Source: Desulforhabdus amnigena
Lineage (GTDB): Bacteria > Desulfobacterota > Syntrophobacteria > Syntrophobacterales > Syntrophobacteraceae
Length of the DNA: 64,000 nt
Assembly: GCF_027925305.1 (NCBI RefSeq)
Contig: NZ_BSDR01000001.1
Coordinates: 2,197,001-2,261,000 of the forward strand
Direction: 5' to 3'
Part shown: positions 1,871 through 46,709 of the stretch, piece after piece
Numbering within the stretch: position 1 is the first letter of the stretch
How the letters are laid out: the number at the start of each line of letters is the position of its first letter
Translations under genes and position numbers: made by a program
The notes under the pieces: generated by a model
Told to the model about the DNA's origin: nothing
Database searches by the model: none
What the model saw: only the letters and a program-made list of their open reading frames with translations

Positions 1871-1871
1871 T

Positions 1872-1959
1872 AAGGGAGTTGGCGGGTTCCAATATCCCGT
1901 TATTCACCACGGAGACACGGAGGGCACAGAGAAGATTTTGGAATTCTTATAAACTCCCA
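1872..1959. repeat. Repeat family C, copy 1 (truncated)
   Basis: Begins AAGGGAGTTGGCGGGTTCC and continues to CCGTTATTCACCACGGAG, matching the left part of the copy at 32761-32901. It then runs GGGCACAGAGAAGATTTTGG, which matches the reverse complement of the right arm of that copy, and ends in ACTCCC. It therefore looks like a half-length derivative with its core inverted. It starts within 2 nt of the stop codon of the upstream gene. Confidence 0.7.
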
Positions 1960-2144
1960 TGACCGGAACGGTCACAACGAAAAATGAAAAAGGCAAAGAG
2001 ACGCAAGCCAATATGGAAAGCGGGAAACGCTCTTGAAAAGCGATATTATCATGAGCTACGAACCATGAGCCTTTTTCATATTAAATTCCTCTGTACTCTC
2101 TGTATCTCTATGATAATTTTGCTTCAGCCTTTTTCAGGTTTTGC

Positions 2145-3584: not shown

Positions 3585-3647
3585 AAAAGGAAGCGTGAAA
3601 ACAGGGGGGATGCCCCCGGAGAGACGGCCAGGAAAAAACTCTACAAG

Positions 3648-4004
3648 CTATTCAACCGCTATTTTTGCTTTGATGGCTTCAAACTTCTTGTCTCCAACCC
3701 CTTTCACGCTCTTGAGGTCTTCGACGGTTTTAAATGGGCCATTGGCATCTCGATGTTGAACAATCTGCTCAGCAATCTTGGGTCCAATGCCCGGGAGTTT
3801 TTCCAACTCGGCGGCATTGGCCGTATTGATGTTCACTTTCGCCTGAGATGCATCTTCCACTGCAGGTTTTGCGGCAGCCGGCTCTTCCTGTTTGGCCTGT
3901 GTTCCCCCCTCCGTCGAACTCGCACTTGAGACAACCGGAAACGTACAACAAAGCACTGCAACCATCAGTAGGAGAATCAGGGGAACGATGCTTTTCTTTG
4001 CCAT
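3648..4004 (-). CDS. ComEA-like helix-hairpin-helix protein
   Basis: A 118-residue exported or membrane-anchored protein. Residues 1-27 form a signal peptide or anchor (MAKKSIVPLILLLMVAVLCC...). An Ala/Glu-rich linker follows, then tandem helix-hairpin-helix motifs: INTANAAELEKLPGIGPKIAEQIV and FKTVEDLKSVKGVGDKKFEAIKAKI. This layout is that of ComEA, which binds incoming DNA during uptake, or of related short periplasmic HhH proteins. The same window encodes DprA and a prepilin peptidase, but neither is adjacent, so a role in transformation is only an inference. Confidence 0.85.
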   Translation of the reverse strand: MAKKSIVPLILLLMVAVLCCTFPVVSSASSTEGGTQAKQEEPAAAKPAVEDASQAKVNINTANAAELEKLPGIGPKIAEQIVQHRDANGPFKTVEDLKSVKGVGDKKFEAIKAKIAVE

Positions 4005-4125
4005 GGGGGCGCCTCCTTAAAATGTGGGAAGCCGCCTCTCCGGGAGCAGAAAATGTATGGAAAAAGTCATACATGAGCTACTAATATATCAGGCGATCTC
4101 AATGTCAAGCGAAAAATCGCCCATA

Positions 4126-5871
4126 TCATTCGGGCATATAGGGAAGCCCTTCCAGGGAGGGTTCGAGGCCTTTCAAGATTTTTTCCAATGCGGCTTCCAA
4201 GTCCTTTTGCGGGCAAAAGACGACTTCCCCCGTCTGCCTCACCTTGATTTCGACTTCCTCCTTTTTCAAAAGCTTCTGGCTCACCACCACACGAACGGGG
4301 ATGCCCAGAAGGTCGGCATCTTTCAGCTTGACTCCGGGTGAATCGTCACGGTCGTCATAAAGAACCTCGTATTTCTCTTTCAACCGGGCATAGAGTTGCT
4401 CGGCCACATCCAGGACTTCCTGCTTCTTGCCAAGAGAACAGACCTCCACCTGAAAGGGAGCGATGGTGATGGGAAGGACGATACCGCTCTCATCATGCCA
4501 CTGTTCCACCACAGATGCCATGAGGCGCTCCACACCGATTCCATAACATCCCATCACGACTCTTTGCTGGGAACCCGAAGCATTGAGGAACGTGACATCC
4601 ATGGAGTCGGGAGCGGTGTACTTGGTACCCAATTTGAAAGTGTGCCCCAATTCAACTCCCCGGCGAATATCCAAAACGCCCTTTCCGCATCGCAAACACC
4701 GGTCACCCTGCCGCACCTCGGCAATGTCCACCCGTTCTTCACACTTGAAATCGCGTCCATACAGCACATTCTTGAGATGCACGTCGGGCTCGTTCCCCCC
4801 TGCCACATACAGGGTCTCTTCCTCGACGGACGTATCGAGAACCACTCGAACCCCCTGGAGTCCGACAGGCGACAGGAAGCCGCCATGGAGGCCTTTGCTT
4901 GCCAGCACATCCTCTGAAGCGAGGGTCATGTGGATCGCTTTCAAATGATTGGTCAATTTGGTTTCAGAGATATCGAAATCTCCACGCACCACCGCCAGCA
5001 CCAGTTGCCCGTCCGCTTCGTAGGCCACGGTCTTGAGGAAATGATTTTCACTTATATCGAAAAACTTCATGAGATCCGCAATGGTCTTGACCTGGGGTGT
5101 GGCGACTCTTTCCATGGCCGGTGCTTCGCCTGCAAGTCCCTGGAAGGAAGGTTTCGCTCCCACCGCCTTTTCCGTGTTGGCGCGATAGTCACACTGAGTG
5201 CACATGACGAAATGGTCTTCGCCGCTTGGAGATTCCAACATGAATTCATGGGACCCCGTCCCACCCATGATGCCCGAATCGGCTTCGATGGGAACCGATT
5301 TGAGACCGCACCGGGCGAAGATCCTCAGGTATGCGTTGAAAATCCTGGGATAGTAGGCATCGAGATCCTCAAAATCCCGATGAAAACTGTAGCCGTCTTT
5401 CATGAAAAACTCGCGGACTCGAAGCAATCCGGCTCTCGGACGGGCTTCGTCCCGAATTTTGGTTTGGATTTGATAGAGCATGACAGGCAGGTCGCGGTAG
5501 GATTTGAAAAACTGTTTGGCAATGTCCGTCACCACCTCTTCATGAGTCATGGCCAAAACGAATTCCCGGTCTTTTCTATCCTTCAGGCGGAAGAGTTCGT
5601 CTCCTATATCGTAGAATCTTCCGGTTGTCTTCCAGAGTTCCGCAGGGTTGAGCACGGGCATGGTGATTTCGAGGCCTCCGATGGCATCCAGTTCGTCCCG
5701 AAGGATTTTCTTGATCTTTTCAGCCACCCGGTGCCCCAACGGTAAAAGCGAATAGATGCCGGCCGCTACGGGGTGAATATAGGAAGCGCGAAGCAGAAGA
5801 ATGTGAGACGGGGTTTCAGCTTCCTTGGGAACATCAAACAGGGTATGAATGAAAAAATTTGAATAACGCAT
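4126..5871 (-). CDS. proS: Prolyl-tRNA synthetase, bacterial type
   Basis: Charges tRNA-Pro with proline in the cytoplasm. The 581 residues fit the bacterial ProS with an inserted editing domain. Class II motif 1 lies around 45-75 ([26 protein letters not shown]). Motif 2 is [21 protein letters not shown] YbaK-like editing insertion covers roughly 230-390. Motif 3 is [15 protein letters not shown] near 450, and a C-terminal anticodon-binding domain follows ([21 protein letters not shown]). It is transcribed alone, divergent from hsp20. Confidence 0.97.
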
Positions 5872-32903: not shown

Positions 32904-34118
32904 AGTACCCCAACGCACTAATTACGCGGCCATTTGCACGGATTTTGGAGCGAACTTGGCCACGAGCTTTGTTTTCGTATAGGTCCACTTTATGGGTTTT
33001 GGATGTCTGTTGAGCTCATCAAAGTAACCCATAAGCATTTGTGAAAGCTCCTTTTTGTCGTTGAAGTCGTTGGGAGTGAGTACATCCCTTGTAACCTTAC
33101 TGAAGATGATCTCAACCTGATCGAGCCAACTGGCATATGTGGGAAGCCAGTAGATACGAACATTAAAAGAAAGGTTGAGAGAAGCAATCCATTTGCCCAG
33201 TTGTTTGGGTGCATGCGTAGAGCCATTGTCCAGAATGAGATCAATAACCTTGAATCCCTTGACAATGGCTGAAGAAAAGAAACTCAGAAGAAAGGTTTTG
33301 AACTCCGCGAAGCGCTTGCGAGCGAAGGTACGGGCGAAGGTGATTCCATTGGCGACGATAAGAGCACAAAACAGCTGTAATGCTCCCATCCGTTTGTATC
33401 GGGATGCCACGTGAACGGGGTGTTCGGCTATGGCGGGTTTGGTCTCGTGAAGAGGTCTTCTTGCTTGAATGGAGGTCTTCTCATCGATACAAACGGAAGC
33501 TTCACCCTGCTGGAACAACTGGGGAGCGTTCTCATAGAGATCCAGGACTGGAGACGCTTTCTCAACGAATTTTGGATCAGGAGATTTTTGCCATAGATGA
33601 TATTGCCAGGGTTTGATCTTGTCCTGTTTCAGCCAAAGACGAATAGTGCTCGGGGCAATGTGGCTGACGATTCCTTTTTCTTTGGCGACTTGACAAAGCT
33701 TCTCTCCAGACCAGCGTTGCCATGGCTTGCCATGATCACACGGTTTCGAACAGGCCAACAAGGTGATCTGAGCCCTCACGGCAGAAGGATGCTTTCTTGG
33801 GGCTCCGGGTCGGGGGTGGTTTTTGAGGCTACCTTCATTGACCCATCTGTTGCGGAACTTCTTAACGGTGGATGGCCTGCATCCGACTTCATCAGCGATC
33901 TGCCGGATGCTCCATTCCGGGTGCTCATGCGATAGGAGGAGGATACGAGCCCTTACAACCTCCGCATAGGGTTTTGTGTAGCTCACTCTCAGATGTTTCA
34001 ATACTTTCCGTTTCTCTGGAGGAATGTAGATGCAGTATTTGTGTTGAGGTCCAGGCATGGTTGTACTCCTCTCCTGTTTGTTGCCTTCTTATTTAATTTT
34101 AACATGCCTGGAACCTCT
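32904..34118 (-). mobile_element. IS630-family insertion sequence
   Basis: Carries one intact transposase. Exact ends are tentative. Both sides have TA (32902-32903 and 34119-34120), as expected for IS630/mariner elements. The first bases inside, AGTACCCCAACGCA on the left and AGAGGTTCCAGGCA on the reverse-complemented right, are only partly similar. Confidence 0.7.
32922..34058 (-). CDS. IS630-family transposase
   Basis: A 378-residue DDE transposase. Residues about 30-75 form a helix-turn-helix (SIRQIADEVGCRPSTVKKFRNRW), and a second DNA-binding helical part covers about 90-150. The catalytic triad is visible as Asp192 (VCIDEKTS), Asp277 (LDNGSTH) and Glu316 (SWLDQVEIIFS), the spacing expected of the IS630/Tc1-mariner group. 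The frame is complete, so the element may be active. Its start lies next to the IS5-type element. Confidence 0.95.
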   Translation of the reverse strand: MPGPQHKYCIYIPPEKRKVLKHLRVSYTKPYAEVVRARILLLSHEHPEWSIRQIADEVGCRPSTVKKFRNRWVNEGSLKNHPRPGAPRKHPSAVRAQITLLACSKPCDHGKPWQRWSGEKLCQVAKEKGIVSHIAPSTIRLWLKQDKIKPWQYHLWQKSPDPKFVEKASPVLDLYENAPQLFQQGEASVCIDEKTSIQARRPLHETKPAIAEHPVHVASRYKRMGALQLFCALIVANGITFARTFARKRFAEFKTFLLSFFSSAIVKGFKVIDLILDNGSTHAPKQLGKWIASLNLSFNVRIYWLPTYASWLDQVEIIFSKVTRDVLTPNDFNDKKELSQMLMGYFDELNRHPKPIKWTYTKTKLVAKFAPKSVQMAA

Positions 34119-34120
34119 TA

Positions 34121-34929
34121 GGTTCTGTTGACATTTGGGTTCTAATTAATAGATGTCAACAGCACTACTACAAGATGAAACATGGTTGAAGATCCTCCAA
34201 TTCCTTCGCTCCTGTGTGGATGTTTACGTAGGAGAAGAAGGTGATTGCCGTCTTTTCATTGAGGCACTCCTTTGGATTACACGAAGTGGTGCTCAGTGGA
34301 GACTGCTCCCGGAGAAATTCGGTAACTGGAACAGTGTCTATAAACGATTCGCCCGCTGGTGTAACAAGGGTATCTTCTCCAGAATGCACGAGCACTTCAT
34401 AGATGATCCCGATATGGAGAACTTCATGTTTGACAGCACCATTGTTCGTGCCCATCCCTGTGCTGCCGGAGCCCTCAAAAGATCCGGTGGACAAGAGACA
34501 CAGGCTCTCGGGCGCAGCCGAGGAGGTTTTTCCACCAAGATCCACGTAGCGGTAGATGGCTTGGGAAATCCCCTGAGGTTCATTCTCACTCCCGGTCAGA
34601 AGAGTGACATCGAACAGGGACCGGCTCTTATCGAGGGCTTCACCTTCGCTCATGCACTGGGAGACAAGGGCTATGATTCGGATGCCTTCGTCCAGGCGAT
34701 CACCCAATCTGGAGCTACTGCTGTGATTCCACCCCGGTCCAATCGCAAAGAGCCCCGCGAATACGACCAATGCCGCTACCGCGAACGACATCTGATCGAG
34801 TGCTTTATGAGCAAGATCAAACATTTCAGACGCATTTTCTCCAGATTCGACAAGCTCGACAGAAGCTTCTTGGGCTTTCTTGGCTTTGTCGCAGCTCTCA
34901 TCTGGTTGAGGTGAAATGTCAACAGAACC
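34121..34929 (+). mobile_element. IS5-type insertion sequence with 16-bp TIR and TA duplication
   Basis: Perfect terminal inverted repeats GGTTCTGTTGACATTT (34121-34136) and AAATGTCAACAGAACC (34914-34929), 809 bp in all. TA is present on both sides (34119-34120 and 34930-34931). The left TA also borders the IS630 element. Confidence 0.92.
34153..34914 (+). CDS. IS5-family transposase (DUF4096-type N-terminus)
   Basis: A 253-residue transposase. The N-terminal region [25 protein letters not shown] is typical of the IS427-like group of IS5. The DDE core has Asp94 (FDSTIVRAH), Asp171 (GDKGYDSD) and Glu215 ([23 protein letters not shown]). In this group the transposase is often split by a programmed frameshift, but here it is one continuous frame. 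The stop codon falls within the right inverted repeat. Confidence 0.95.
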
Positions 34930-35060: not shown

Positions 35061-35132
35061 ACATACGCGAGAACGCTCTTAAAAACGCAGGTGCGATTCT
35101 GCGGGCGATCTATCTCAACTATCTTGATTCAA

Positions 35133-36746
35133 TCACTTTTTGCTACTTGTCGATCCCTTCTTTTTCTTCTTTCCAGCGGATTTTTCCTTTTCCGTTTTCG
35201 CTTTGCCCTTTGTGGCTCTCGGTTTCTTGGCGGTGCCCGCTTTCTTGACAGCCTTTTTTGCCGGTTTTTCCTCTACCTCCGGCACCTGCTCAGCCTTCAG
35301 CTCCTCCTCCCCAGCCTCAACCGAGGGAACCTCTTCAGCAGCTGCAACCTCCTCGGCCTCAAAGGCGATTCCCGTTTCAGGAATCTCTTCAATCAGGGGA
35401 GCCTTCTCAACACTCAGCTCAGGTCCTTCAAGGGTGGTCTCTACAGGAGGAACCTCAATCTCAGGGGCCTCACCTTCAACAGCAGCCTCCTCTTCACCGA
35501 GCGGGGCTTCCGCAACGGGTGCCTCAGGTTCGGATACCAGCTCCTCTTCTATCTTGACTTCTTCTGGAGGGGTCACAACCTCTTCTGCAACAAGAGAAGC
35601 CGCTTCGGGAGTGATTTCCGCCACCGACTCCGGAACCTGCCCAGCGGCAGGAAGTTCTACTTCTCCGGACACTTCCGGAGGGCCGGCAGCTGGCGCGACC
35701 GCCTCTTCCTCCATTGCCGCCTCTGCCTCTTCCACTGCAGGGCCCTTTTTGATCTCTTCTTCTATTATGGCAACTTCAACAGGAACGGATATCTGGACAG
35801 TTTCAGGGGCGGCCTTGGCAACGGTCTTTTCCTGCGGTTCCTTAACGGGCTCCGCAGCCAGAACAGGCTCTGCAACCTGCCCGGCCGCCTTTTTGGGTTC
35901 CGCCTCTAAACTAGCTTTTTTTTTTTCTGCACCGCGCTCTTTTGCGGGTTCAGCAGGAGGCGGTACTTCTTTGACAACCGCTCGAAACTCACTTTCGAAG
36001 TAGGTCACCGCACTGAGCACCGGCTGGCTGCTGGTTGAAGCAAAGTCGCAGTAAGGAGCATCTCGCATTGTCTCACAAAGTGTACGAACCTGTGCAAGAT
36101 CCTCCGTGGTTCCTTCCCCCGAAACTATTCGCTCGAGACACTCACCCAGACGTTTTATCCCGATTCGGCACGGAGTACATTTCCCGCAGGAAAGACCCTC
36201 TTCAAAATCAAGGAAGTATTTGGCGACATCGACCATCGAAATCTGCTCATCGATGACGCCAATGAATCCCGTATCCCTTTCATAGTACACATCGCTTCGA
36301 AAGGATTGTTCAGGATTTATGGAAGCGAGCGGAAACAATATTCTGCCTTTGGCGAGGGTTTCCTTCACGATTTCAGGGACATCCTGTTTCTGAACCTTCA
36401 GGTAAAAGAACCCCTTCTGAGGAAAGCCTATAAAAGGGCCGTTTTTACAGGTTCCGGAACATCCCATTTTGGCGTTTCCAACCTTAATGTCGAGGCCTTC
36501 CTGCTTGATCTGATCCGTCAGCGCCTGCCGAATGGCATCACACTCACAAGAACATCCCTCCCTGGGAACACAGACTGTGACGCAAGGTTTGCTAGAATTC
36601 GGATCGCAAAAACTCTTTGCCTTTTTTGCGATTTTCGGTTGCGCTGCGGCAGGTGCAGCCTTTGCTGCAGGCTTCGATCTTTTCTTGGCCATCGGAATCC
36701 ACGGATCATTTTTAAGTGCTTGAGTAAGTTCTTTAAATATACCCAT
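35133..36746 (-). CDS. NuoF-like Fe-S protein lacking the NADH/FMN core, with acidic tail
   Basis: Last gene of the nuo operon, about 537 residues. Residues about 55-135 form a thioredoxin-like [2Fe-2S] domain as at the start of bifurcating NuoF/HydB proteins (Cys 59, 65, 96 and 100 are candidates; GCSGTCKNGP). After only some 45 residues comes the NuoF C-terminal [4Fe-4S] N3 module: LSCGKCTPCR with Cys 187, 190, 193 and Cys 233 in PYCDFAS. The FMN- and NADH-binding Rossmann core of about 230 residues is absent. Residues 262-537 are a Glu/Ala/Pro/Val-rich low-complexity tail ending in a Lys cluster. A TTG start 10 codons upstream is possible, but ATG 36746 follows AAGGAAGAG. It may be a non-NADH electron-entry subunit; that is inference. 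Confidence 0.85.
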   Translation of the reverse strand: MGIFKELTQALKNDPWIPMAKKRSKPAAKAAPAAAQPKIAKKAKSFCDPNSSKPCVTVCVPREGCSCECDAIRQALTDQIKQEGLDIKVGNAKMGCSGTCKNGPFIGFPQKGFFYLKVQKQDVPEIVKETLAKGRILFPLASINPEQSFRSDVYYERDTGFIGVIDEQISMVDVAKYFLDFEEGLSCGKCTPCRIGIKRLGECLERIVSGEGTTEDLAQVRTLCETMRDAPYCDFASTSSQPVLSAVTYFESEFRAVVKEVPPPAEPAKERGAEKKKASLEAEPKKAAGQVAEPVLAAEPVKEPQEKTVAKAAPETVQISVPVEVAIIEEEIKKGPAVEEAEAAMEEEAVAPAAGPPEVSGEVELPAAGQVPESVAEITPEAASLVAEEVVTPPEEVKIEEELVSEPEAPVAEAPLGEEEAAVEGEAPEIEVPPVETTLEGPELSVEKAPLIEEIPETGIAFEAEEVAAAEEVPSVEAGEEELKAEQVPEVEEKPAKKAVKKAGTAKKPRATKGKAKTEKEKSAGKKKKKGSTSSKK

Positions 36747-36852: not shown

Positions 36853-38277
36853 CTAGTAAGGAAGACTACGAGCAGCAGCTTCCGTCAGTGCTACAAACTT
36901 GTCAGGGAAAACCCCGAGATAAACACTCAATATTACCAGCACAAAGCTCATGGACCGGGTCCAGGCGTCAACACGAATCGCAGGATACGGCCGAACGGGT
37001 TCAAGCAGGTAGGCAGCTTTGATCACAATGAGATAGTAATACAGAGAAATCGTGGCGTTGACCATACCGATGATCACAAGGGCAAGGTAGCCCTTTTCCA
37101 GGGCAGCGGCAAAGACCAGGAATTTCCCCGTAAAACCGACCGTTGGTGGTATCCCCGCCAATCCGAACAGACCAAGCATCAGGGTCATGGCAAGCAACGG
37201 AGACCGTTTATGAAGTCCGGCCAATTCCTTGATCTGAAGATTGTGTCCATCGTCTGCGATTTTCATGATGACCATGAAAATCGAGTAATTCATGATCAAA
37301 TAAGCTATCGCGTAATAAATGGCGCTCGCATACCCGCGCTCGGTCATGCTCAAGATACCCACAAGCATATACCCCGCATGAGCGATACTGGAATAAGCGA
37401 GAAGCCGCTTGATATCCTTTTGGATGATTGCGACAAGGTTGCCGAAGGTCATGGAGAGGATGGAAAGCGTAATCAGCACCTTGATAAAAACCGCACTCTC
37501 TCCGGCGGAGAATCCCACGAACCGAATCACCATCGCTGCAGCGGCCATCTTGGAAGCCGTGGCAATGAAGGTCGTGACCTGGTTGGCGGCACCCTGGTAC
37601 ACATCCGGAGCCCAACTGTGAAACGGAAACAGCGCCTGCTTGAAGAAAAAGCCGCACAAGGCGAGGACAAGCCCGGCAATTGCGGCCGGTTCGTTGATCA
37701 CCTTCGGTAAAGCCTCCATGACTCCGGATACATACGTCGTCTTAGCCATGCCGAATATGAAACTGATACCGAAGATCATGAAAGCCGAAGCGGTAACCCC
37801 TACCATGAAATACTTGATTCCGGTCTCCACGAACTTGTTCGAATCGCTCCTCATGGGAACGAGCAGGAACAAGGTATAGGACGAAAGTTCGAGGGCCACA
37901 TAGATGGTCAGCAGTTCCACCGCACTGACGAGCATCATCATGCCCAGTGTACAGATGAAGACAAGAAAATAGAATTCCGCATGCTGCCGCTCATCGATTC
38001 CCTTGAGCTCATTGCACGACGAAATCACCCAGAAGGTGCCCAGAGCCAGCAGCAGTTTAAATACTTGACTGAACAAATCGACCCGGTAGGCATCAAAAAA
38101 GACCATTCCATTTTGCCGCGCACAGAACACCGTCACCAAAACACCAATCCCGGCAAGGGTCACTGCAATCTTGTGCAGGCGTTTAGATGAGGCTTGTTTG
38201 CTGAGCGACAAAATGAAAAACACCAGGCCGCACAGAACAACATACAACTCAGGAATAAAAAGGACCCATTTCATCAT
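36853..38277 (-). CDS. nuoN: NADH-quinone oxidoreductase subunit N
   Basis: Antiporter-like proton-pumping membrane subunit of complex I. About 474 residues with some 14 hydrophobic segments. The family core [33 protein letters not shown] and [16 protein letters not shown] is visible. The GTG at 38283 is an alternative start two codons earlier; ATG 38277 is chosen within GTGGCGATGATG. It is preceded by nuoM with a 20-nt gap and followed by the NuoF-like gene. Confidence 0.96.
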
Positions 38278-38302
38278 CGCCACGTCTTCCCCTCACTTAG
38301 CC

Positions 38303-39778
38303 CTATAAGTTCCCAACAAATGGAACCACTGCACTTTGAATGACATCCAGCATCAGTTTTGGGAAAAATCCGAAAAACAGAATGATCCCTATCAAAATGA
38401 TGCGCGGTGTCGCAAGAAACAATGGCACGTCAGGAATATGAGCCCATCGTTCATTCCTCTCGCCATAGAACGTCCTCTGCACAACCCGCAGCATAAAGAG
38501 CGCGCTGACGACCAACCCCGTAACAGCCAGAAGCCCACGAACCGGATAGGTCTTCACCGCTGCGACGAACACCATCAGTTCAGCCCAGAAACTCGCCATG
38601 CAGGGTACACCGATCCCGGCGAAAGCCGCCATAATGAAGAAGCTCGACGCAATCGGCATGGTCTTGGAAAGTCCTCCAAGATCCGGAATCATCTTGGTAT
38701 GCGTCCGATCATAAATATAGCCGACCGAAGAGAAGAAAAGGGCCGTCATGACACCGTGAGCAAACATCTGGAAGACGGCCCCGTTGATGCCGTTGACGGT
38801 CATGGTCGAGAGTCCCAGGCCTACCATGCCCATGTGAGAGACGCTCGAATAACCGATGACATATTTGAGGTCCGTTTGGGCAAGGCCGACCAGGGCGCCG
38901 TAGACAATCGCTATCGTTGCAAGGAGTGCCATCAAGTCAGCCCAATAGACCAGACCTTCCGGACAGAGTGTCATGCCCAGCCTCAATATTCCATAAGCTC
39001 CCAGTTTCATCAGCACGCCGGCGTGAATCATACTCACGGCCGTAGGCGCCGCAACGTGGCCTACCGGAGACCAAGTATGGAACGGCCAGACAGCAGCAAG
39101 AATGCCGAAACCCACATAGAGCATCACAAAGGCGATCTTTTGCACCAGGGGACTGAACCCGATTCTCTGCAGTTCAAACAGATCGAAGGTCACCCCGCCC
39201 GCCTGTGCCCACAGATATAAAATGCCGGGCAAGATGAGGGCGCTCCCCGCGAGCAGATAGAGGGTGAGCTTCATGGCGCCATATTCCTTCCGGGTTCCAC
39301 CCCATATCGCTATCAGGGGGTACATGGGAAAGAGAGAGACGTCATACCAAACGAAGATCCAGAAGAGGTCCATGGAAATGAAGACGCCATAGACACCGGC
39401 GACGAGGAGGAAAGTGAGAGCAAAAAACTCTTTTACCCGGACCTCGAGGTCCCACATCGTCCAGACGCCGGTAAAGAGAACCACGGCAGTGAGAAGGATC
39501 ATGGGAAGATTGATTCCATCCACTGCGTTGAAGTAATAGATTCCAAGGCTCTTTACCCAGAGATAGCGCTCAACAAATTGCAAACCGCCTTTCTGCACGT
39601 CATAGGCCTGATAAAGCCACAATGCCAATATCAGACCAACACCTGCAAAGAAGAGGCTTACCTGTTTGACCAGTTTGGGTCGGTCATCCGGAATACAGAG
39701 AATGACCAGCAAGCCGACAATAGTTGACATCAAGATTGCCGTCAGGATAGGAAAATGTGCCATTTCCATCGAAGTCAT
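38303..39778 (-). CDS. nuoM: NADH-quinone oxidoreductase subunit M
   Basis: Second antiporter-like proton-pumping subunit. The 491-residue protein has about 14 membrane segments with the family motifs WPFHTWSPVGHVAAPTAVSM, GAYGILRLGM and KYVIGYSSVSHMGMVGLG, including the conserved lysine and His/Pro region of the proton path. It lies 74 nt after nuoL. Confidence 0.96.
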   Translation of the reverse strand: MTSMEMAHFPILTAILMSTIVGLLVILCIPDDRPKLVKQVSLFFAGVGLILALWLYQAYDVQKGGLQFVERYLWVKSLGIYYFNAVDGINLPMILLTAVVLFTGVWTMWDLEVRVKEFFALTFLLVAGVYGVFISMDLFWIFVWYDVSLFPMYPLIAIWGGTRKEYGAMKLTLYLLAGSALILPGILYLWAQAGGVTFDLFELQRIGFSPLVQKIAFVMLYVGFGILAAVWPFHTWSPVGHVAAPTAVSMIHAGVLMKLGAYGILRLGMTLCPEGLVYWADLMALLATIAIVYGALVGLAQTDLKYVIGYSSVSHMGMVGLGLSTMTVNGINGAVFQMFAHGVMTALFFSSVGYIYDRTHTKMIPDLGGLSKTMPIASSFFIMAAFAGIGVPCMASFWAELMVFVAAVKTYPVRGLLAVTGLVVSALFMLRVVQRTFYGERNERWAHIPDVPLFLATPRIILIGIILFFGFFPKLMLDVIQSAVVPFVGNL

Positions 39779-39852: not shown

Positions 39853-41829
39853 TTAGATCAGGAAATATAGAACCACCAAGCCAACCGCAGCCACCATAAC
39901 AAGCAGATTGTATTGCAGCATGCCGGACTGCAGAAAGCTGAACAGACGACCGCCAGCGACGGTGAAAAAGCATATGCCGTCGATCCCGCCGTCGATTACA
40001 CGCCTGTCATTTCGGGTAAAGGCATTGGTGAGACCTCCATACACAACATTGTCCAGCGACTTTCTCAGGAAATCATCCATATACCAGCGTCTGGCAAAAA
40101 GCTCTTCAACTCTTGGAAATCTATACAGAAAACCTTTCTGCTCGGCACCTCTCTTGCCAAATTCCATCCATGCCCACAGAATTCCAGTCAACGCACAACC
40201 CACGGCAGTAAACAATAAAATGTAATGGCCGGCTCCATGACCCGCCGCAGCATGCGCTCCCTCGGCACCCTCGTGCATCGCAGCCGCATGCTGAGCAACG
40301 GCTTGAACGGTACTGCTCGGTCCCATCAGGAAATGTTCCAGAGAGGATTGGAAAAATCCCAACACGACGGTGACACTGGCAAGAACCATGACGGGCACTG
40401 CCATGCACCAGAAGATGTATCCATGGTGCTCGCCCCCGTGTTCTTCGTGTCCGTGGGCCTCTTCTCCATGGTGAGCGGGATGCTCTTCAATACCCCCCTT
40501 GGGAAATACGACAAAGAAAATGAGGCGGAAGCTGTAGTAGGCAGTCATGAGAGCGCCGAGAAGGCCCGCAAAAAGCCAAATCTTGTTGGGTGAGTTGGCC
40601 AACGCCCCGAGAATCGCTTCCTTGCTGAAAAATCCTGAAAAGGGGAACACTCCGGAAAGAGCCAGGGCGCCTATGGACATGCAGACGATGGGGATGCGGA
40701 GATTTCGCCCCCCCTGCTTCCCGATGATGCGCATATCATTGGTATGATATTCATGGATGAAGATGCCGGAGCAAAGGAAGAGCAAGGCCTTGAAACCGGC
40801 ATGGGTCGTCAGGTGGAAAACACCCGCAAAATATCCACCCGCGGCCAGGCCCATGACCATGAATCCCAGCTGGCTGACCGTGGAGTACGCCCAGACCTGC
40901 TTCAAGTCATAAGTAGCCATGGCCATGGTGGATGCCAGAAGCATGGTGACCGTTCCGATGGTGAGGGCAACGGTCATGGCGTCCGGAGAGGATGCGAAAA
41001 AGGGAAATATGCGGCTGAACATGTAAACGCCGGCCGCAACCATCGTTGCAGAGTGGAGCAACGCGCTGACGGGGGTGGGGCCTTCCATGGCATCGGGCAA
41101 CCAGGTGAGGAGCGGGAACTGGGCGCTCTTACCGATGACACCGCAGAAAATCAGCAATCCAGAAACGGTGACGAGAATATTGGGAAGGAGATGCATCTTG
41201 CCCGCTTCACACAAATCGAGGATATTGAGGTTTCCATATCCTACGACCAGTATCAGAAGCCCCATCAGAAACCCGAGATCGGCAAAGCGGGTCATTACAA
41301 AGGCCTTCTTGCCCGCCTGAGAAGCACTGTACTTCTCGTAATAGAAGCCGATGAGCAGATACGATGCCAAGCCGACCAGCTCCCAGAAGATAAACAGTTG
41401 AAACATACTGGGAGCAATGACCATGTTCATCATGGCCCAGGCGAAAAGCGACTGGAACGCATAATACCGGGTAAAGCCCGGGTCCCCCGCCATATAGCCC
41501 AGCGAATAAATCTGCACGAGCAAACTGATGGTGGCCACGATCATCAGCATCAGCAAGCTCAGAGGATCGAGCAGGTATCCAAACGGGATAAGAACCTCAT
41601 CTGCCAACAACCAGGCCGTCTGGTATTCAACAGGGGCACCAGCGTGAAAAAGCCTGGCGAGCAGAAATGCCGCACATATAAAAGAAACACTCACAGCGCT
41701 GATGGAAATGCTGCAGGAAAGGCGAGTGTTTGCCCGCGTAAATATCAAGATGACCGCCATCGAAAGGAGTGGCAGGCCCGTACCCAAAGCTACCGCTAGT
41801 AAGACCGGATCTTTAAAAAGCCAACTCAT
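39853..41829 (-). CDS. nuoL: NADH-quinone oxidoreductase subunit L
   Basis: Largest antiporter-like subunit, whose long lateral helix clamps the pumping modules. The 658-residue protein has VQIYSLGYM, GKSAQFPLLTWLPDAMEGPTPVSAL split across the conserved proton-channel helix, and TYDLKQVWAYSTVSQLGFMVMG. A histidine-rich loop near residue 450 (HPAHHGEEAHGHEEHGGEHHG) and another His/Ala-rich stretch near 515-535 are unusual and might bind metal. The C-terminal helix is present. Confidence 0.96.
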   Translation of the reverse strand: MSWLFKDPVLLAVALGTGLPLLSMAVILIFTRANTRLSCSISISAVSVSFICAAFLLARLFHAGAPVEYQTAWLLADEVLIPFGYLLDPLSLLMLMIVATISLLVQIYSLGYMAGDPGFTRYYAFQSLFAWAMMNMVIAPSMFQLFIFWELVGLASYLLIGFYYEKYSASQAGKKAFVMTRFADLGFLMGLLILVVGYGNLNILDLCEAGKMHLLPNILVTVSGLLIFCGVIGKSAQFPLLTWLPDAMEGPTPVSALLHSATMVAAGVYMFSRIFPFFASSPDAMTVALTIGTVTMLLASTMAMATYDLKQVWAYSTVSQLGFMVMGLAAGGYFAGVFHLTTHAGFKALLFLCSGIFIHEYHTNDMRIIGKQGGRNLRIPIVCMSIGALALSGVFPFSGFFSKEAILGALANSPNKIWLFAGLLGALMTAYYSFRLIFFVVFPKGGIEEHPAHHGEEAHGHEEHGGEHHGYIFWCMAVPVMVLASVTVVLGFFQSSLEHFLMGPSSTVQAVAQHAAAMHEGAEGAHAAAGHGAGHYILLFTAVGCALTGILWAWMEFGKRGAEQKGFLYRFPRVEELFARRWYMDDFLRKSLDNVVYGGLTNAFTRNDRRVIDGGIDGICFFTVAGGRLFSFLQSGMLQYNLLVMVAAVGLVVLYFLI

Positions 41830-41835
41830 AAACTT

Positions 41836-42144
41836 TTATCCCTTCAGTTGCTGTGCACGCTCCACATTGATCGAACGCATCCTTCGGAATAGAGCAAGGA
41901 TGAGACTCAAACCAATAGCCGCCTCCGCAGCCGCCAGTCCCATAATAAAAAGTGTGACGATCTGCCCTACCGCCGGCTCCGGAAACAGAAACCGATTGAA
42001 TGCCATAAAATTCAAGCTGGCCCCGTTGAGCATCAATTCCACAGAGATCAGCATACCGATGAGATTTCGCCTTTGCAAAACTCCCAGCAACCCCAGACTA
42101 AAAAGCAATGCAGCAATGACCAGGTATGTGCTCAGTGAGTTCAT
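41836..42144 (-). CDS. nuoK: NADH-quinone oxidoreductase subunit K
   Basis: Small membrane subunit with three helices; 102 residues. LLGVLQRRNLIGMLISVELMLNGASLNFMAF carries the conserved Glu in helix 2 (written here across the motif), and IMGLAAAEAAIGLSLILALFR carries that of helix 3. The start overlaps the nuoJ stop by 4 nt, and nuoL begins 6 nt after the stop. Confidence 0.96.
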   Translation of the reverse strand: MNSLSTYLVIAALLFSLGLLGVLQRRNLIGMLISVELMLNGASLNFMAFNRFLFPEPAVGQIVTLFIMGLAAAEAAIGLSLILALFRRMRSINVERAQQLKG

Positions 42145-42668
42145 GAGCTTAACCTCCGACTATATCCCGCCGTTAAAATCGCCCCGATGATGGCCACCAA
42201 AAGTACCAGAGAAATGATTTCGAAAACCAGATCGTACCGGGTCAGCAAAAGATGACCAATCGTCACCACAGACCAATCCTCACTGCGCTCCGCAGCAGGG
42301 ATCCAATGGCTCTTGGAGACCACACCCACGACGGCCATGAAAAAAATAACGCTCGCAGAACACGCCATGGCCACCTTCGGCACCCGCCTCTTAGGCACCT
42401 CGAGGTGCAGGGGCCGGGAGAGCATGATGGCGAAAACGATGGAGATGCATATCGCACCGACATAAATCAACAATTGCATGAGAGCGATGAAAAAGCTCCC
42501 CAGATACAAGTAGAACCCGGCCACTCCGGCTAAAGCGAGCACCAATCCGAGTACATTGTAGAGGATGTTGCGCGGAAACACGGCGATAGCCGCTCCTCCA
42601 AGCGAAAACCCTACGACGACCCAGAAGGCCATTTGCGCTAACGTTTCAGTCCCTATCAGAAGGCTCAT
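42141..42668 (-). CDS. nuoJ: NADH-quinone oxidoreductase subunit J
   Basis: Membrane subunit with five hydrophobic segments; 175 residues. The segment FIALMQLLIYVGAICISIVFAIML is the helix that changes conformation in the proton-coupling path. The stop overlaps the nuoK ATG (ATGA), indicating coupled translation. It follows nuoI after 30 nt. Confidence 0.95.
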   Translation of the reverse strand: MSLLIGTETLAQMAFWVVVGFSLGGAAIAVFPRNILYNVLGLVLALAGVAGFYLYLGSFFIALMQLLIYVGAICISIVFAIMLSRPLHLEVPKRRVPKVAMACSASVIFFMAVVGVVSKSHWIPAAERSEDWSVVTIGHLLLTRYDLVFEIISLVLLVAIIGAILTAGYSRRLSS

Positions 42669-42698: not shown

Positions 42699-43139
42699 TT
42701 AAGATTGGCTCTCCTCCAACCTGGCCATCAGATCAATCACTCCATCCCACCGCGACTCCCCTTCCAACTCGTATTCCTTGGAAAATTTCAACGTCTTGGT
42801 GGGGCAGACCTCTACACACAGGCCGCAAAGACTGCACCGCGTAAAGTCGATTACGTAGTGTGTTCCAACTTTTTTGCCCTTTGCCCGTTCCTTGATTCCC
42901 TGAACCTTGATCAATCCGCTGGGGCACATGCGCTGGCACTGTCCGCACGCGATACATTTGTGCGTCCCCGTGTCAGGAAATCTGACAAATTCAATATGGC
43001 CACGATAAGCAGGTGAAAGTTCGACTCTTTGGCGCGGATACTGAACAGTAACCACGGGCCGATACAATCGCCGGAAAGTCACCCGCATCCCCTCGACCAA
43101 GCTCCAGCCACCATAAATGATTTCTTTCCAGTAGCTCAT
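42699..43139 (-). CDS. nuoI: NADH-quinone oxidoreductase subunit I
   Basis: Carries the two [4Fe-4S] clusters N6a and N6b. The 146-residue protein has two ferredoxin motifs, CIACGQCQRMCPSGL and CSLCGLCVEVCPTKTL. The N-terminal segment TVQYPRQRVELSPAYRG is typical of NuoI. GAGGAT precedes the ATG. In this operon it must pass electrons from an unknown donor to NuoB, since NuoG is missing. Confidence 0.97.
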   Translation of the reverse strand: MSYWKEIIYGGWSLVEGMRVTFRRLYRPVVTVQYPRQRVELSPAYRGHIEFVRFPDTGTHKCIACGQCQRMCPSGLIKVQGIKERAKGKKVGTHYVIDFTRCSLCGLCVEVCPTKTLKFSKEYELEGESRWDGVIDLMARLEESQS

Positions 43140-43158: not shown

Positions 43159-44139
43159 CTATATAAATTTCAGAACAATCGCCGTGATCAGCAGGTTGAC
43201 GAGACTTAACGGGATCATGACTTTCCACGAAAAATTCATCAACTGATCAAAGCGAACCCGCGGGAAGGTCCAACGCACCCACATGATCACGAATATGAGC
43301 GCGTAGGTTTTCATCAAAAACCAGACGATACCGGGTATTTTGAAATCAAATCCAAAAGGCCCGTGCCACCCGCCGAAAAACAAGCTGGTCGCCACAGCGC
43401 TGACGATGAACATATTGGTGTATTCCGCCAGGAAGAACAAACCGAACCGCATTCCACTGTATTCCGTGTGGAACCCGGCCACCAGTTCCGATTCCGCTTC
43501 CGGTATGTCAAAGGGAGCCCGGTTCGTTTCAGCGGTTGCGGAGATCAGATAAATCAAACCCGCTACGGGTTGAAGGAATATGAACCAGACATGGCTTTGA
43601 GCCCCCACGATCTCCGAGAATCGAAGCGAGTTGGTCATGAGCACGACACTCATGACCGTCAACAGAAGGGGAATCTCATAGGCAACATTTTGGGCTACGG
43701 AGCGGACGGCTCCGAGCAGAGCGTACTTGTTGTTGGATGCCCAACCACCTGCGAGAATCGCCAGGACACTGAAAGTTGAAAAAGCGAAGATCAAGAGAAG
43801 GCCCACATTCATATCGCGAATGATCAGTTCGGGCGCAAAAGGAAGGACCAGGAACCCGACAAGCACCGGCATAAAAATGAGCACCGGAGCAATGACAAAC
43901 AGTTTTTTGTCCGCAGCTCTCGGTGTGATGAGTTCTTTCCCCACGAGCTTCAGACCATCGGCAATGGTTTGAAGCAAACCAAACGGCCCAACCTCCTTAG
44001 GTCCCGGACGAAGCTGGATATGCCCAGCCACCTTTCGTTCCAGCCAAACCAGAAAGAGGGCATTTAGCTGGGAAAAAGCTAAAACTATTATCAGCCCCAC
44101 TATCAGGCGAATCCACTCCGAACCCACTTCATTTCCCAT
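43159..44139 (-). CDS. nuoH: NADH-quinone oxidoreductase subunit H
   Basis: Membrane subunit linking the quinone chamber to the proton pumps. The 326-residue protein has eight hydrophobic segments. [32 protein letters not shown] and [36 protein letters not shown] are the most conserved stretches (listed as adjacent blocks). GGAGAGCAGAAC precedes the ATG. The 90-nt gap before it is the place where nuoEFG sit in the E. coli order; there is nothing there. Confidence 0.96.
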
Positions 44140-44229: not shown

Positions 44230-45351
44230 TTATCGATCTATCTCGGGGATAACCACGTCAATGCTGCCCAGAATTGAAATGGCATCTGCGACCAGCGTCT
44301 TTTCAAACACCTCCGTAAGGACATGCAGGTTTCCAAAGCTTGGAACCCTGACGCGCAACCGATAGGGAACCCCCGTCCCATCGCTCACCACATAATATCC
44401 CGTCTGCCCCCGTGCGCTTTCAAAACTGAAATACACCTCCCCCTTGGGGGGGCGCAGCCGGTCGGAGACCTTTGGATTCAACCACTGTCCACCCGGAAGA
44501 TTGTCCAGAGCCTGTTCGATGATCCGGCAGCTCTGTTCCATTTCTTCCATACGTACAATGTAGCGATCCATGGCATCCCCTTTGGTGCCGATGGGGATAT
44601 CGAAGTCGAACCGATCATATACCTCGTAAGGTTCAGCCTTACGAACATCGAAGCGGACCCCACAAGCCCTCAAATTCGGCCCCGTCACTCCGTACTGCCG
44701 GGCCTGCTCTTTTGAAACCTTGCCCACATCACGCGTTCGGTGAATGAAAATGATGTTCTTGGTCACCAGATTGTGATAATCGGGCCAGCGACTGCGCAAA
44801 CGCTTGATAAAAGCGCGCGTCATCTCGATAAACCCGTTATCGATATCCTGACACACGCCGCCGAAGCGGCAGTAGGAATAGGTCAGTCGAGAACCGCTCA
44901 CCCGGTCCAGAATGTCCAGAATTTGCTCACGATCATCGAAGGCGTAAAGGAAGGGAGTGAATCCGCCGAGATCCATGACATAGGTTCCAAACCACAAAAG
45001 ATGACTCGAAATCCGGTTCAACTCGGAACAGATGACCCGGATATACTTCGCTCTCTCGGGCACCTCCAACCCGGCCAACTTTTCCACCGCCAGTACATAG
45101 CCGTGATTGAAAAGCATTCCGGAAAGATAGTCCATGCGACTCGTATTGGGCATGAATTGCTTGTAAAGGCGGTTCTCCCCCATCTTTTCATGTCCGCGAT
45201 GGCCATAACCTATAACGGGGTCTGCCTTGACAATGAACTCACCATCCAAATCCAGAAGAACTCTGAGCACACCATGAGTGCTTGGGTGTTGAGGCCCAAG
45301 GTTCAAGGTATACAACTTCTCGACAATAGGTTCTTGAAATTGTTCAGCCAT
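44230..45351 (-). CDS. nuoD: NADH-quinone oxidoreductase subunit D
   Basis: 49-kDa subunit forming the quinone pocket with NuoB; 373 residues. LNLGPQHPSTHGVLRVLLDLDGE, GYGHRGHEKMGENR and SPKGE-like RPPKGEVYFSFESARGQTGYY are visible. The His and Tyr of the quinone site fall in these motifs. The C-terminus ends ILGSIDVVIPEIDR, the usual NuoD terminus. It overlaps nuoC by 8 nt. NuoC and NuoD are separate here rather than fused. Confidence 0.97.
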   Translation of the reverse strand: MAEQFQEPIVEKLYTLNLGPQHPSTHGVLRVLLDLDGEFIVKADPVIGYGHRGHEKMGENRLYKQFMPNTSRMDYLSGMLFNHGYVLAVEKLAGLEVPERAKYIRVICSELNRISSHLLWFGTYVMDLGGFTPFLYAFDDREQILDILDRVSGSRLTYSYCRFGGVCQDIDNGFIEMTRAFIKRLRSRWPDYHNLVTKNIIFIHRTRDVGKVSKEQARQYGVTGPNLRACGVRFDVRKAEPYEVYDRFDFDIPIGTKGDAMDRYIVRMEEMEQSCRIIEQALDNLPGGQWLNPKVSDRLRPPKGEVYFSFESARGQTGYYVVSDGTGVPYRLRVRVPSFGNLHVLTEVFEKTLVADAISILGSIDVVIPEIDR

Positions 45352-45817
45352 AGATCTCTTCTCGTCTGCGATAAGCGTTTACTTTGCCAAATGTCTTCTT
45401 TAACGGGTAAAAGTCCGCATCTTCGGGAAGCAACAAACGCCTCAAATCAGGATTGTCGACAAAGGAGATTCCAAAAAATTCATGAATCTCACGCTCTTGC
45501 CACTTGGCAGTCTTGAAGATATCACAGACGGTAGGAACTGCCTGATCATGACCGCACAACACCCGCACCGCAAACCGCGACCGAGGCTCATAACAATTGA
45601 AATGATAGACCAATTCAAAGGTATCTTGAAAATCGATCGCAGTGCAGGATTCCAGGTAGAATTCCATTTCATTCAGAACGGTCGCCACCTCGCGCAACTG
45701 GCTTTGCGGCACATTTGCCGAGAAGACCACTCCCGCACGGTAGCCCTCATCTCTGGCGACAGCCCCCCCGGGAAGCATTTTTTGAAGCTTCTCTAAGACG
45801 TCATTCACCTTGCCCAT
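45344..45817 (-). CDS. nuoC: NADH-quinone oxidoreductase subunit C
   Basis: 30-kDa peripheral subunit; 157 residues. The signature is EREIHEFFGISFVDNPDLRRLLLPED, with ARV-like RFAVRVLCG before it. It starts 2 nt before the nuoB stop region and overlaps the nuoD start, so it is part of a tightly packed operon. Confidence 0.95.
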   Translation of the reverse strand: MGKVNDVLEKLQKMLPGGAVARDEGYRAGVVFSANVPQSQLREVATVLNEMEFYLESCTAIDFQDTFELVYHFNCYEPRSRFAVRVLCGHDQAVPTVCDIFKTAKWQEREIHEFFGISFVDNPDLRRLLLPEDADFYPLKKTFGKVNAYRRREEIYG

Positions 45818-45819
45818 AG

Positions 45820-46347
45820 TTAGAGTTTCCCTCCCTTGCGATGAAAACGCCGTAAATAGTTGCGATCTTCCCCGCGGGTGATCTTGTCTTCCAGAGCCAG
45901 AAATCCCTGAATGAGCCCTTCAGGCCGCGGGGGGCACCCCGGGATAAAGATATCGACAGGCAAAATCAAACCCGCACCAGGCACGATGGCATACTGACCA
46001 TCATATTCAAAGGGGCCACCCGAAATGGCGCAGTTCCCCATCGCCACACACCATTTTGGATTCGGCATCTGATCCCAAAGCATTTGAATCGCGGGGGCCA
46101 TCTTCCTGGAAATGGTTCCGGCCACGATCATGAGGTCCGACTGGCGGGGAGAAGGCCTGAAAACACCCGCTCCAAAACGATCCAGATCGAAGCGGGAAGC
46201 CCCCGCCGCCATCATCTCTATAGCGCAGCATGCCAATCCAAAGGTCATCGGCCAGAGCGAGTTGGCCCTCGCCAAATTCAGGACATCATCCAGAAGTGCG
46301 AATTTGATGACCGGCTCTACTGGTTCTACTCTTCTCTGGGTTTCCAC
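45820..46347 (-). CDS. nuoB: NADH-quinone oxidoreductase subunit B
   Basis: Holds the terminal [4Fe-4S] cluster N2. The 175-residue protein has [18 protein letters not shown], with the tandem Cys pair, then [12 protein letters not shown] and [11 protein letters not shown] with the other two Cys ligands. The start overlaps the nuoA end by 22 nt. Confidence 0.97.
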
Positions 46348-46709
46348 TCAAACACTCCTTTACACCAGGCATAAACGATGGCTAGAGACAAAATCCCCAC
46401 AAATATAAAGATTTCCACCAGATCCCGAATGGCATACTTGCCATAGGCCAATGCAACAGGAAAGAGGTACAGCACATCAACATCGAAGGCGAGGAAGATC
46501 AGGGCATAGATGTAATACGCCACCGTAAACTGCATCCATGCGGTCCCGATGGTTTCCATACCGCTCTCATAGGTTGCCTCGCGCATTTTCCCTGTGCTTC
46601 GCTTGACGATCAGCATTGAAAGGATGATCGGCACAACAGCAAAGACCACACCTACTAGAAGATAAAGTGCAACAGATAAAAAATCGGTCAAAAGTTCTTT
46701 GGGTAGCAT
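46326..46709 (-). CDS. nuoA: NADH-quinone oxidoreductase subunit A
   Basis: First gene of the operon. A 127-residue membrane subunit with three helices and the conserved loop [38 protein letters not shown] (spanning helix 2, described as one region). GGAG precedes the ATG at 7 nt. The upstream region is gene-free for almost 800 nt. Confidence 0.96.

Follow-up and report, generated by a model that had tools for sequence, protein, structure and literature searches.

Syntrophobacter fumaroxidans is a model for syntrophic propionate oxidation. In its strain MPOB, the eleven genes Sfum_0199-209 have been listed, without mention of FX (the protein described below), as one of two NADH dehydrogenases in the section cited here (PMC3570798), and eleven genes have also been described for Desulfitobacterium, the electron donor being described as unknown in the cited part of that work (PMC11238625). 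According to the same part, a search for one conserved protein that donates electrons to complex I without NuoEFG has been unsuccessful, and the cited passage on Desulfurivibrio leaves the donor to its complex I open (PMC12142623). A 14-subunit complex I with a BfuABC module (Nuo-Bfu) has been predicted in the portion cited of PMC9304861, while StnC is presented in the cited portion of PMC10482914 as operating together with StnAB in a soluble enzyme. The bifurcating subunit HydB carries, in the sections cited, an additional site formed by three Cys and one His (Zn/B2 site), which one paper models with Zn and the other as a [2Fe-2S] cluster with one more Cys (PMC9499530, PMC8880783), and which is reported in the first of these sections to be absent from canonical Nqo1 (PMC9499530).

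Here we describe a gene, termed FX, at the end of a complex I operon in a window of 64,000 nucleotides, by which we mean the whole stretch of DNA that was analysed. FX is a genuine conserved protein that goes with complex I genes, is built from known modules and is undescribed within the literature searched, as a full-text search of the main texts of open-licence articles has returned no description of it.

The nuo Operon of the Window

The operon of the window is of the 11-subunit type: nuoABCDHIJKLMN extends from 46709 down to 36853, NuoEFG are encoded outside of it, and tblastn of the window for NuoE and NuoG genes has returned chance-level matches only, NuoI apart. A gap of 106 nt separates nuoN from FX (Table 1), in line with the first-pass annotation, which had FX closing the complex I operon and whose coordinates, 35133-36746, are confirmed, with FX on the minus strand. 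The hairpin on the 3' side of FX is weak evidence, since the number of terminator-like sites in the scan does not exceed that of shuffled sequences (4 against a mean of 3.6). Just downstream of FX, at 32922-34914 of the window, a transposase-like gene pair has been observed. A second copy of it, located at C1 3.884-3.887 Mb and ~6 kb away from the Hox-like genes, shares 99.95% identity with this pair across 2075 bp. In the congener G001, no transposase-like genes lie between FX and the next gene, and a nuoG beside FX is absent there too.

Table 1. Coordinates of FX, its parts and the nuo genes (positions of the window).
Feature	Position	Strand	Description or basis
Terminator-like hairpin	35086..35103	minus	~30 nt beyond FX stop
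FX	35133..36746	minus	537-aa flavin-less HydB/NuoF-related protein, last gene of nuo operon; ATG at 36746
FX tail, Lys-rich end	35136..35267	minus	residues 494-537; similar across five long-tailed FX
FX tail, E/A/P/V-rich	35136..35960	minus	residues 263-537
FX N3 [4Fe-4S] four-helix module	35979..36230	minus	residues 173-256; ligands C187, C190, C193, C233
FX linker	36231..36350	minus	residues 133-172, ~40; occupies position of HydB FMN/NADH + SLBB core
FX thioredoxin-like [2Fe-2S] domain	36351..36611	minus	residues 46-132; candidate ligands C59, C65 (or C67), C96, C100
nuoN	36853..38283	minus	PF00361
nuoM	38303..39778	minus	ORF; named by sequence and operon order, no family search; relatives by tblastn
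nuoL	39853..41829	minus	ORF; named by sequence and operon order, no family search; relatives by tblastn
nuoK	41836..42144	minus	ORF; named by sequence and operon order, no family search; relatives by tblastn
nuoJ	42141..42668	minus	PF00499
nuoI, two [4Fe-4S] motifs	42699..43139	minus	Fer4 families
nuoH	43159..44139	minus	PF00146
nuoD	44230..45351	minus	PF00346
nuoC	45344..45817	minus	PF00329
nuoB	45820..46347	minus	PF01058
nuoA	46326..46709	minus	ORF; named by sequence and operon order, no family search; relatives by tblastn

Domain Anatomy and Predicted Structure of FX

The N3 module of FX is matched by PF10589 over residues 173-256 (E 2e-24, 85.7 bits against a cut-off of 23.5), and the N-terminal domain is reached by PF01257 (NuoE) below its cut-off only (14.6 vs 24.8 bits, model positions 66-143 of 145), a partial match that sets FX apart from the full-length 24-kDa subunit with its N-terminal helices. 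No other Pfam family has been found in FX at E 0.1, a search in which homology to the cyanobacterial ferredoxin-docking subunits NdhS, NdhV and NdhO has been viewed at the level of Pfam and from which PF01512, the FMN/NADH core, is absent. The NuoF model TIGR01959 covers FX with its positions 311-409 of 410 only (70.5 bits, cut-off 558.65); FX has the N3 module of NuoF and lacks the FMN/NADH 51-kDa core, and the FMN core, SLBB domain and C-terminal 2[4Fe-4S] domain by which HydB/BfuB is recognised in the cited part of PMC9304861 are all missing. Using phmmer, HydB (7t2r_B) has been aligned to FX residues 58-158 with 46.6 bits, and its chain positions 10-108 and 427-534, i.e., both flanks of the missing core, match FX. 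The top PDB relatives of FX are bifurcating HydB/NfnB/StnB chains, several of which match on either side of the missing core.

An AlphaFold2 model of FX, built from 13 sequences, has reached a mean pLDDT of 77.9 and a pTM of 0.69, with values below 50 for residues 13-42 and the last ten. Residues 44-151 of the model superpose on the thioredoxin-like ferredoxin 1m2a of Aquifex (Z 11.7, rmsd 2.0 Å, 91 residues), a fold which, together with the Cys ligands, identifies a thioredoxin-like [2Fe-2S] ferredoxin domain with a predicted cluster. The N3 part superposes on the N3 region of NuoF 2fug_1 (Z 12.2, rmsd 2.0, 100 residues); as Z values of ~12 are common among helical bundles, we base the N3 assignment on PF10589 and not on Z. 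Pfam, phmmer and AlphaFold2 hence agree on the anatomy of a [2Fe-2S] domain, a linker and N3 without the FMN/NADH core that had been proposed in the first-pass annotation, with ~40 residues for the linker where ~45 had been noted. Tblastn of the window with HydB-type NuoF and with the 424-aa NuoF of the same genome (E<0.01) has yielded no remnant of the FMN core, the sole matches being FX, through its two Fe-S parts, and NuoI, which is ferredoxin-like. A core in an adjacent frame, which would have overturned the proposal, is not found, and a flavin core encoded near FX is ruled out across the window.

Cluster Ligands and the Zn/B2 Residues

Residues have been counted in 32 aligned FX, with one contig-truncated protein omitted from the N-terminal counts (n = 31). 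The N3 ligands are complete in 31/32 FX, the set C59, C65, C96 and C100 is present in 29 of 31, and the set with C67 in the second place in 30 of 31. The extra cysteines C47, C55 and C67 of the [2Fe-2S] domain are kept in 30/31 FX and possibly form a second metal site. Exceptions are the FX of G039, in which the [2Fe-2S] ligands and the extra cysteines have been lost together, that of G030 (L015), in which only C65 has been lost, and that of G006, which has lost all four N3 ligands. With N3 ligands missing in G006 and [2Fe-2S] ligands missing in G039, a two-cluster relay is therefore not obligatory in FX.

The columns of the Zn/B2 site (C170, H257, C263, C268) are kept in 30 of 32 FX. Both exceptions belong to the genus of the window, in which the four residues have been lost together; the FX of the window and of its congener keep all eight usual cluster ligands. 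An ungapped offset of 268 in the PDB alignment carries H257, C263 and C268 to HydB His525, Cys531 and Cys536, which belong to the site as given in the cited section of PMC8880783. Since this site is reported absent from canonical Nqo1, it ties FX to the HydB branch, and judged from its sequence FX most likely derives from HydB/BfuB/StnB-type subunits that lost the flavin/NADH core.

Conservation and Distribution

Among 59 related genomes, a number that includes that of the window, 35 carry full-length or nearly full-length FX, with 12/26 in family f1, 8/8 in f2, 0/5 in f3, 1/1 in f4, 11/12 in f5, 3/3 in f6 and 0/4 in the others. In a phylum survey of 394 genomes of at least 85% completeness, which gives a lower bound for the distribution, FX occurs among the matches listed (to 2e-16) in f1, f2, f5, f14 and f20, with a distant form in f22; the loci L072-L075 carry NuoE/HydB-type genes, not FX, and have been left out of the counts. 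Twelve carrier loci from named genomes come from Desulfacinum infernum, D. hydrothermale, Desulfosoma, Syntrophobacteraceae and Deltaproteobacteria MAGs; one is labelled Myxococcota in the tree, and at least three appear to repeat genomes already counted, so the loci are not independent. As the same architecture recurs in 35/59 relatives, FX is no pseudogene, and a deletion artefact is excluded by this recurrence together with the Desulfacinum infernum and D. hydrothermale proteins. The sporadic deletion named beforehand as a possible refutation is thus not borne out, and the search for the same domain order at the same operon position has returned the protein in 35/59 genomes and, among the 20 loci that were fetched, its position beside nuoN in 19.

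The core of FX is 73% identical between the window and its congener G001 (dN 0.175, dS saturated). In a tree of 44 rows, nine HydB/HoxF rows form one clade (100/100) and the f22 proteins sit on a branch of length 3; the tree holds no outside group and, if rooted on the HydB/HoxF clade, is compatible with one origin of FX. The f22 loci L068-L071 encode an FX-like protein of 230-234 aa, with [2Fe-2S] and N3 parts and no flavin core.

The tail of the window's FX comprises 275 residues (E 65, A 49, K 33, P 31, V 30) with a Lys-rich end, a composition that agrees with the region of about 275 residues, rich in Glu, Ala and Pro and ending in a Lys cluster, that had been noted. Beyond the last conserved Cys column, 213-378 residues follow in five of the 32 FX and 9-33 in the other 27. 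The five long-tailed proteins are those of G000 (the window genome), G001, G002, G003 and G006, from genera g1, g2, g3 and g6; the FX of f5 and f6 have no long tail. Between the window and G001 the tail is 42% identical with a dN/dS of ~0.9 (a rough value, dS being saturated under NG86), and by this comparison it appears to evolve almost free of constraint. No tandem repeats have been found in it. The suggestion that the tail is a docking or partner-binding region has fared poorly, given its length in only 5/32 FX from four genera and the dN/dS near 0.9; as a docking domain conserved in the family it is refuted by the same two observations.

Gene Neighbourhoods in Relatives

Among 20 loci fetched for carrying FX, the gene follows nuoN directly in 19. 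The sole exception, G024 (L047), has an E-F-FX-G cluster with no nuoA-N beside it. The order E-F-nuoA..N-FX-G has been found in 8/20 loci, which combine FX with NuoE, HydB-type NuoF and NuoG, and two more show FX-G with the other end lost at the contig end. An example of the accompanying F is the 617-aa HydB-type protein of L041, which comprises a thioredoxin-like domain, FMN core, SLBB, N3 and two C-terminal Fer4. The NuoG beside FX scores below the cut-off of both the Fdh-alpha and the NuoG model; an active formate dehydrogenase is disfavoured, as no Cys/Sec has been seen by eye at the FdhA-like Cys-rich site.

Other flavin modules have been found in other families. In L063 (f14, G159) the order is nuoN-E-F-FX-G, with F being a 1036-aa HydB-GltD fusion; at 1858-4968 of this locus, the HydB-type NuoF fused to a GltD-like flavoprotein lies between nuoE and FX. 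In three of the four f20 loci, the gene next after FX encodes a GltD-NuoG fusion (StnC-like), which in L067 has 1171 aa and matches StnC 8oh5_C at E 2e-171. In the three f5 genomes read on the nuoA side, a StnC-like gene of 1236-1238 aa stands divergent beside nuoA. The f14 operons L060-L062 contain two NuoL-like genes plus nuoM and hence an extra antiporter subunit. In L101 (G044), only nuoI-N and FX have been matched, and no nuoABCDH precedes them within 11 kb, perhaps through an assembly fault.

Input Modules in the Genome of the Window

The window genome encodes two PF01512 proteins only: one of 550 aa, whose gene belongs to a Hox-like cluster, and the NuoF of 424 aa. The latter stays just under the cut-off of TIGR01959 (523.2 vs 558.65 bits), and its partner NuoG exceeds its own cut-off. 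This nuoEFG is located at C1 4.376-4.381 Mb (C1:4376370-4380830), far from both complex I operons, the second of which (C1:1170950-1181010) has neither EFG nor FX; nuoEFG and the second operon lie 3.2 Mb apart. Orthologues of the 424-aa NuoF (66-82%) have been found in 13/19 other genomes searched, in f1 and f5 only, and adjoin the second-type NuoD in G002, G003, G024 and G046 or lie ~21 kb away from it in G006. Because the orthologues lie beside or near that operon in relatives, the nuoEFG at C1 4.376-4.381 Mb probably serves the second complex I.

For the complex I of the window, no dedicated N module has been found in the genome sequence, and sharing of nuoEFG is possible. In G000-G003 and G006 (with the nuoA side of the operon off the contig in G002 and G003), no orthologue has been found of the NuoG that accompanies FX elsewhere; the best matches are at 30-36% along most of its length, with N-terminal pieces at up to 41%, and several of the 30-36% matches carry an in-frame TGA, like selenocysteine formate dehydrogenases. 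NuoG orthologues in G008, G016, G024, G026 and G037 show 59-70% identity to the f1/f2 operon type. The same five genomes have yielded no orthologue of the operon's HydB-type NuoF: their HydB-type proteins reach 47-51% as against 73-80% for orthologues and adjoin Hox-type, formate-dehydrogenase-like or other redox genes. A BfuABC-type N module is encoded with nuo in relatives such as L041 and not in the operon of the window.

Discussion: Proposed Role of FX

We give roughly even chances to the reading that FX is a flavin-less HydB/BfuB/StnB-type paralogue of NuoF that now serves as an accessory Fe-S subunit of the complex I input arm. It would occupy the input (N) arm in one lineage of complex I, mainly within the Desulfobacterota. 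In favour of this reading are the bifurcating HydB/NfnB/StnB chains as top PDB relatives, the Zn/B2 residues of 30/32 FX, the gene orders around FX, its place by nuoN in 19/20 loci and the 73% identity of its core within the genus. In known structures, NuoF and HydB bind a NuoG-type subunit through their N3 module, and FX likely docks in this way too, with its four-helix N3 module on a NuoG-like subunit. As FX accompanies E-F-G in some genomes and nuoA-N in others, the simplest reading has it in contact with the Q module as well as with the NuoG-type input subunit. It may help to link the Q module (NuoI/C/D/B) to separate flavin donors, which would be either HydB-type NuoE/NuoF or the StnC-type fusion of an NADPH/FAD part with NuoG. 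At the loci that contain StnC, a plausible path would run from NADPH to the FAD of the StnC-like protein, on to its clusters and then to NuoI; FX would here take the position of StnB, minus the bifurcating FMN. In the lineage of the window, the other input subunits would have gone, and FX, having stayed with the 11-subunit core, would have acquired a long tail of low complexity; its most likely place in this lineage is the hydrophilic arm, where it would serve ferredoxin or another soluble donor as a docking or relay piece. From the loci compared, FX appears to be a supplementary subunit of the input arm, and the only one of that arm to be retained in the lineage of the window.

A wider claim, which we hold to be doubtful, gives FX the role of input adaptor throughout a complex I family in which the flavin donor is exchangeable, being NuoEF plus NuoG, a StnC-type NADPH module or a soluble ferredoxin-type donor. 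If this were true, the StnC-type lineages would have an NADPH:quinone complex I without FMN, FX alone would receive electrons in the lineage of the window from a soluble ferredoxin-type donor, and the HydB-type NuoEF elsewhere would be confurcating. Several observations count against the reading of FX as an accessory input-arm subunit. The N3 ligands are missing from the FX of G006, the [2Fe-2S] ligands from that of G039 and the Zn/B2 residues from the genus of the window. Nine g7 genomes have nuoD at 76-80% identity and no FX, and the six g7 operons that were read contain matches to all eleven nuoA-N genes (nuoM of L093 in two pieces), so the nuo core works without FX. No G or StnC gene is next after FX in L060-L062 (f14), where FX follows nuoN, nor in L064 (f20), and the HydB-type NuoF that accompanies FX already bears an N3 module of its own. 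In the f22 loci L068 and L070, the FX-like gene is located away from nuo, among genes that by eye look like Wood-Ljungdahl genes (formate-THF ligase, FolD, CODH). Finally, whole HydB chains align to the FX model over ~180 residues (183) at an rmsd of ~15 Å; in the model, FX and HydB have parts in common, not the domain arrangement.

It is unlikely that FX is a structural or assembly subunit whose clusters carry no catalytic electrons, as in accessory subunits or in the off-path cluster N1a. The dispensability of either cluster (N3 lost in 1/32 FX, the [2Fe-2S] set in 1/31) fits such a role, and N1a of complex I is placed off the main electron path in the cited sections of PMC9499530 and PMC3898324; against this, 31/32 FX keep the N3 ligands and 30/31 keep C59, C67, C96 and C100, which exceeds the need of a scaffold.

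Quite unlikely, in our estimate, is the proposal with which the analysis began, i.e., that in the 11-subunit complex I FX replaces NuoEFG as the acceptor for ferredoxin or another carrier and uses its tail for docking. It draws on the distance of the closest NuoG (30-36% vs 59-70%) and HydB-type NuoF (47-51% vs 73-80%) in G000-G003 and G006, on the donor to 11-subunit complexes being treated as an open question in the cited part of PMC11238625, and on the Lys-rich tail end, which could bind an acidic ferredoxin. Yet FX coexists with E/F/G in other genomes, nuoEFG exists in the genome of the window, the FX of G006 has lost N3, and the f5 and f6 proteins do without the long tail. What stands of that claim is an operon without EFG that contains a conserved FX; with E/F/G beside FX in 8/20 loci, standing in for NuoEFG is, on the gene content compared, probably not the origin of FX. 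A reading in which one nuoEFG, that at C1 4.376-4.381 Mb, serves both the second complex I and that of the window, FX being the leftover of a lost N module and on its way out, is very improbable: nuoEFG is indeed distant from both operons, and the window's FX lacks the Zn/B2 site and has a tail dN/dS near 0.9, but the core of FX shows 73% identity within the genus, none of the eight usual cluster ligands is missing in either species, and long-tailed FX has been retained in four genera.

Significance and Comparison With Known Systems

FX is a concrete candidate for electron input to complex I enzymes without NuoEFG, and the flavin modules beside it in relatives, including the StnC-like NADPH module by nuo, provide a list of testable donors. 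It represents a flavin enzyme subunit that has apparently been reduced to its Fe-S parts and retained, and it may help to link complex I to unusual electron sources in some sulfate-reducing and syntrophic bacteria.

With HydB/BfuB/StnB, the flavin subunits of HydABC, NfnABC and StnABC, FX has the thioredoxin-like [2Fe-2S] domain and N3 in common, and in 30/32 FX (not in that of the window) also the Zn/B2-site residues; unlike these subunits, it has no FMN/NADH core, no SLBB domain and no C-terminal ferredoxin domain with two [4Fe-4S] clusters. It shares the N3 module and the place in the nuo operon with NuoF (Nqo1), from which it differs by the missing FMN core. The operons of f2 and part of f1 resemble Nuo-Bfu in encoding NuoE, a HydB-type NuoF with C-terminal Fer4, and NuoG; compared with Nuo-Bfu, FX is an additional subunit, and the operon of the window is without BfuABC. 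As BfuB is defined with an FMN domain in the criteria stated in the cited part of PMC9304861, FX would fall outside the counts of that survey. Regarding the Stn transhydrogenase, the f20 and f5 loci encode a StnC-like GltD-NuoG fusion beside nuo and FX; in contrast to Stn, no HydB-type gene lies directly beside the StnC-like gene in the f20/f5 stretches read (one is ~4.6 kb off in L066), and FX adjoins the StnC-like gene or ends the nuo operon. The 11-subunit complex I-like enzymes of cyanobacteria and Desulfitobacterium have nuoABCDHIJKLMN without EFG in the operon, as has the window, to which the window adds FX.
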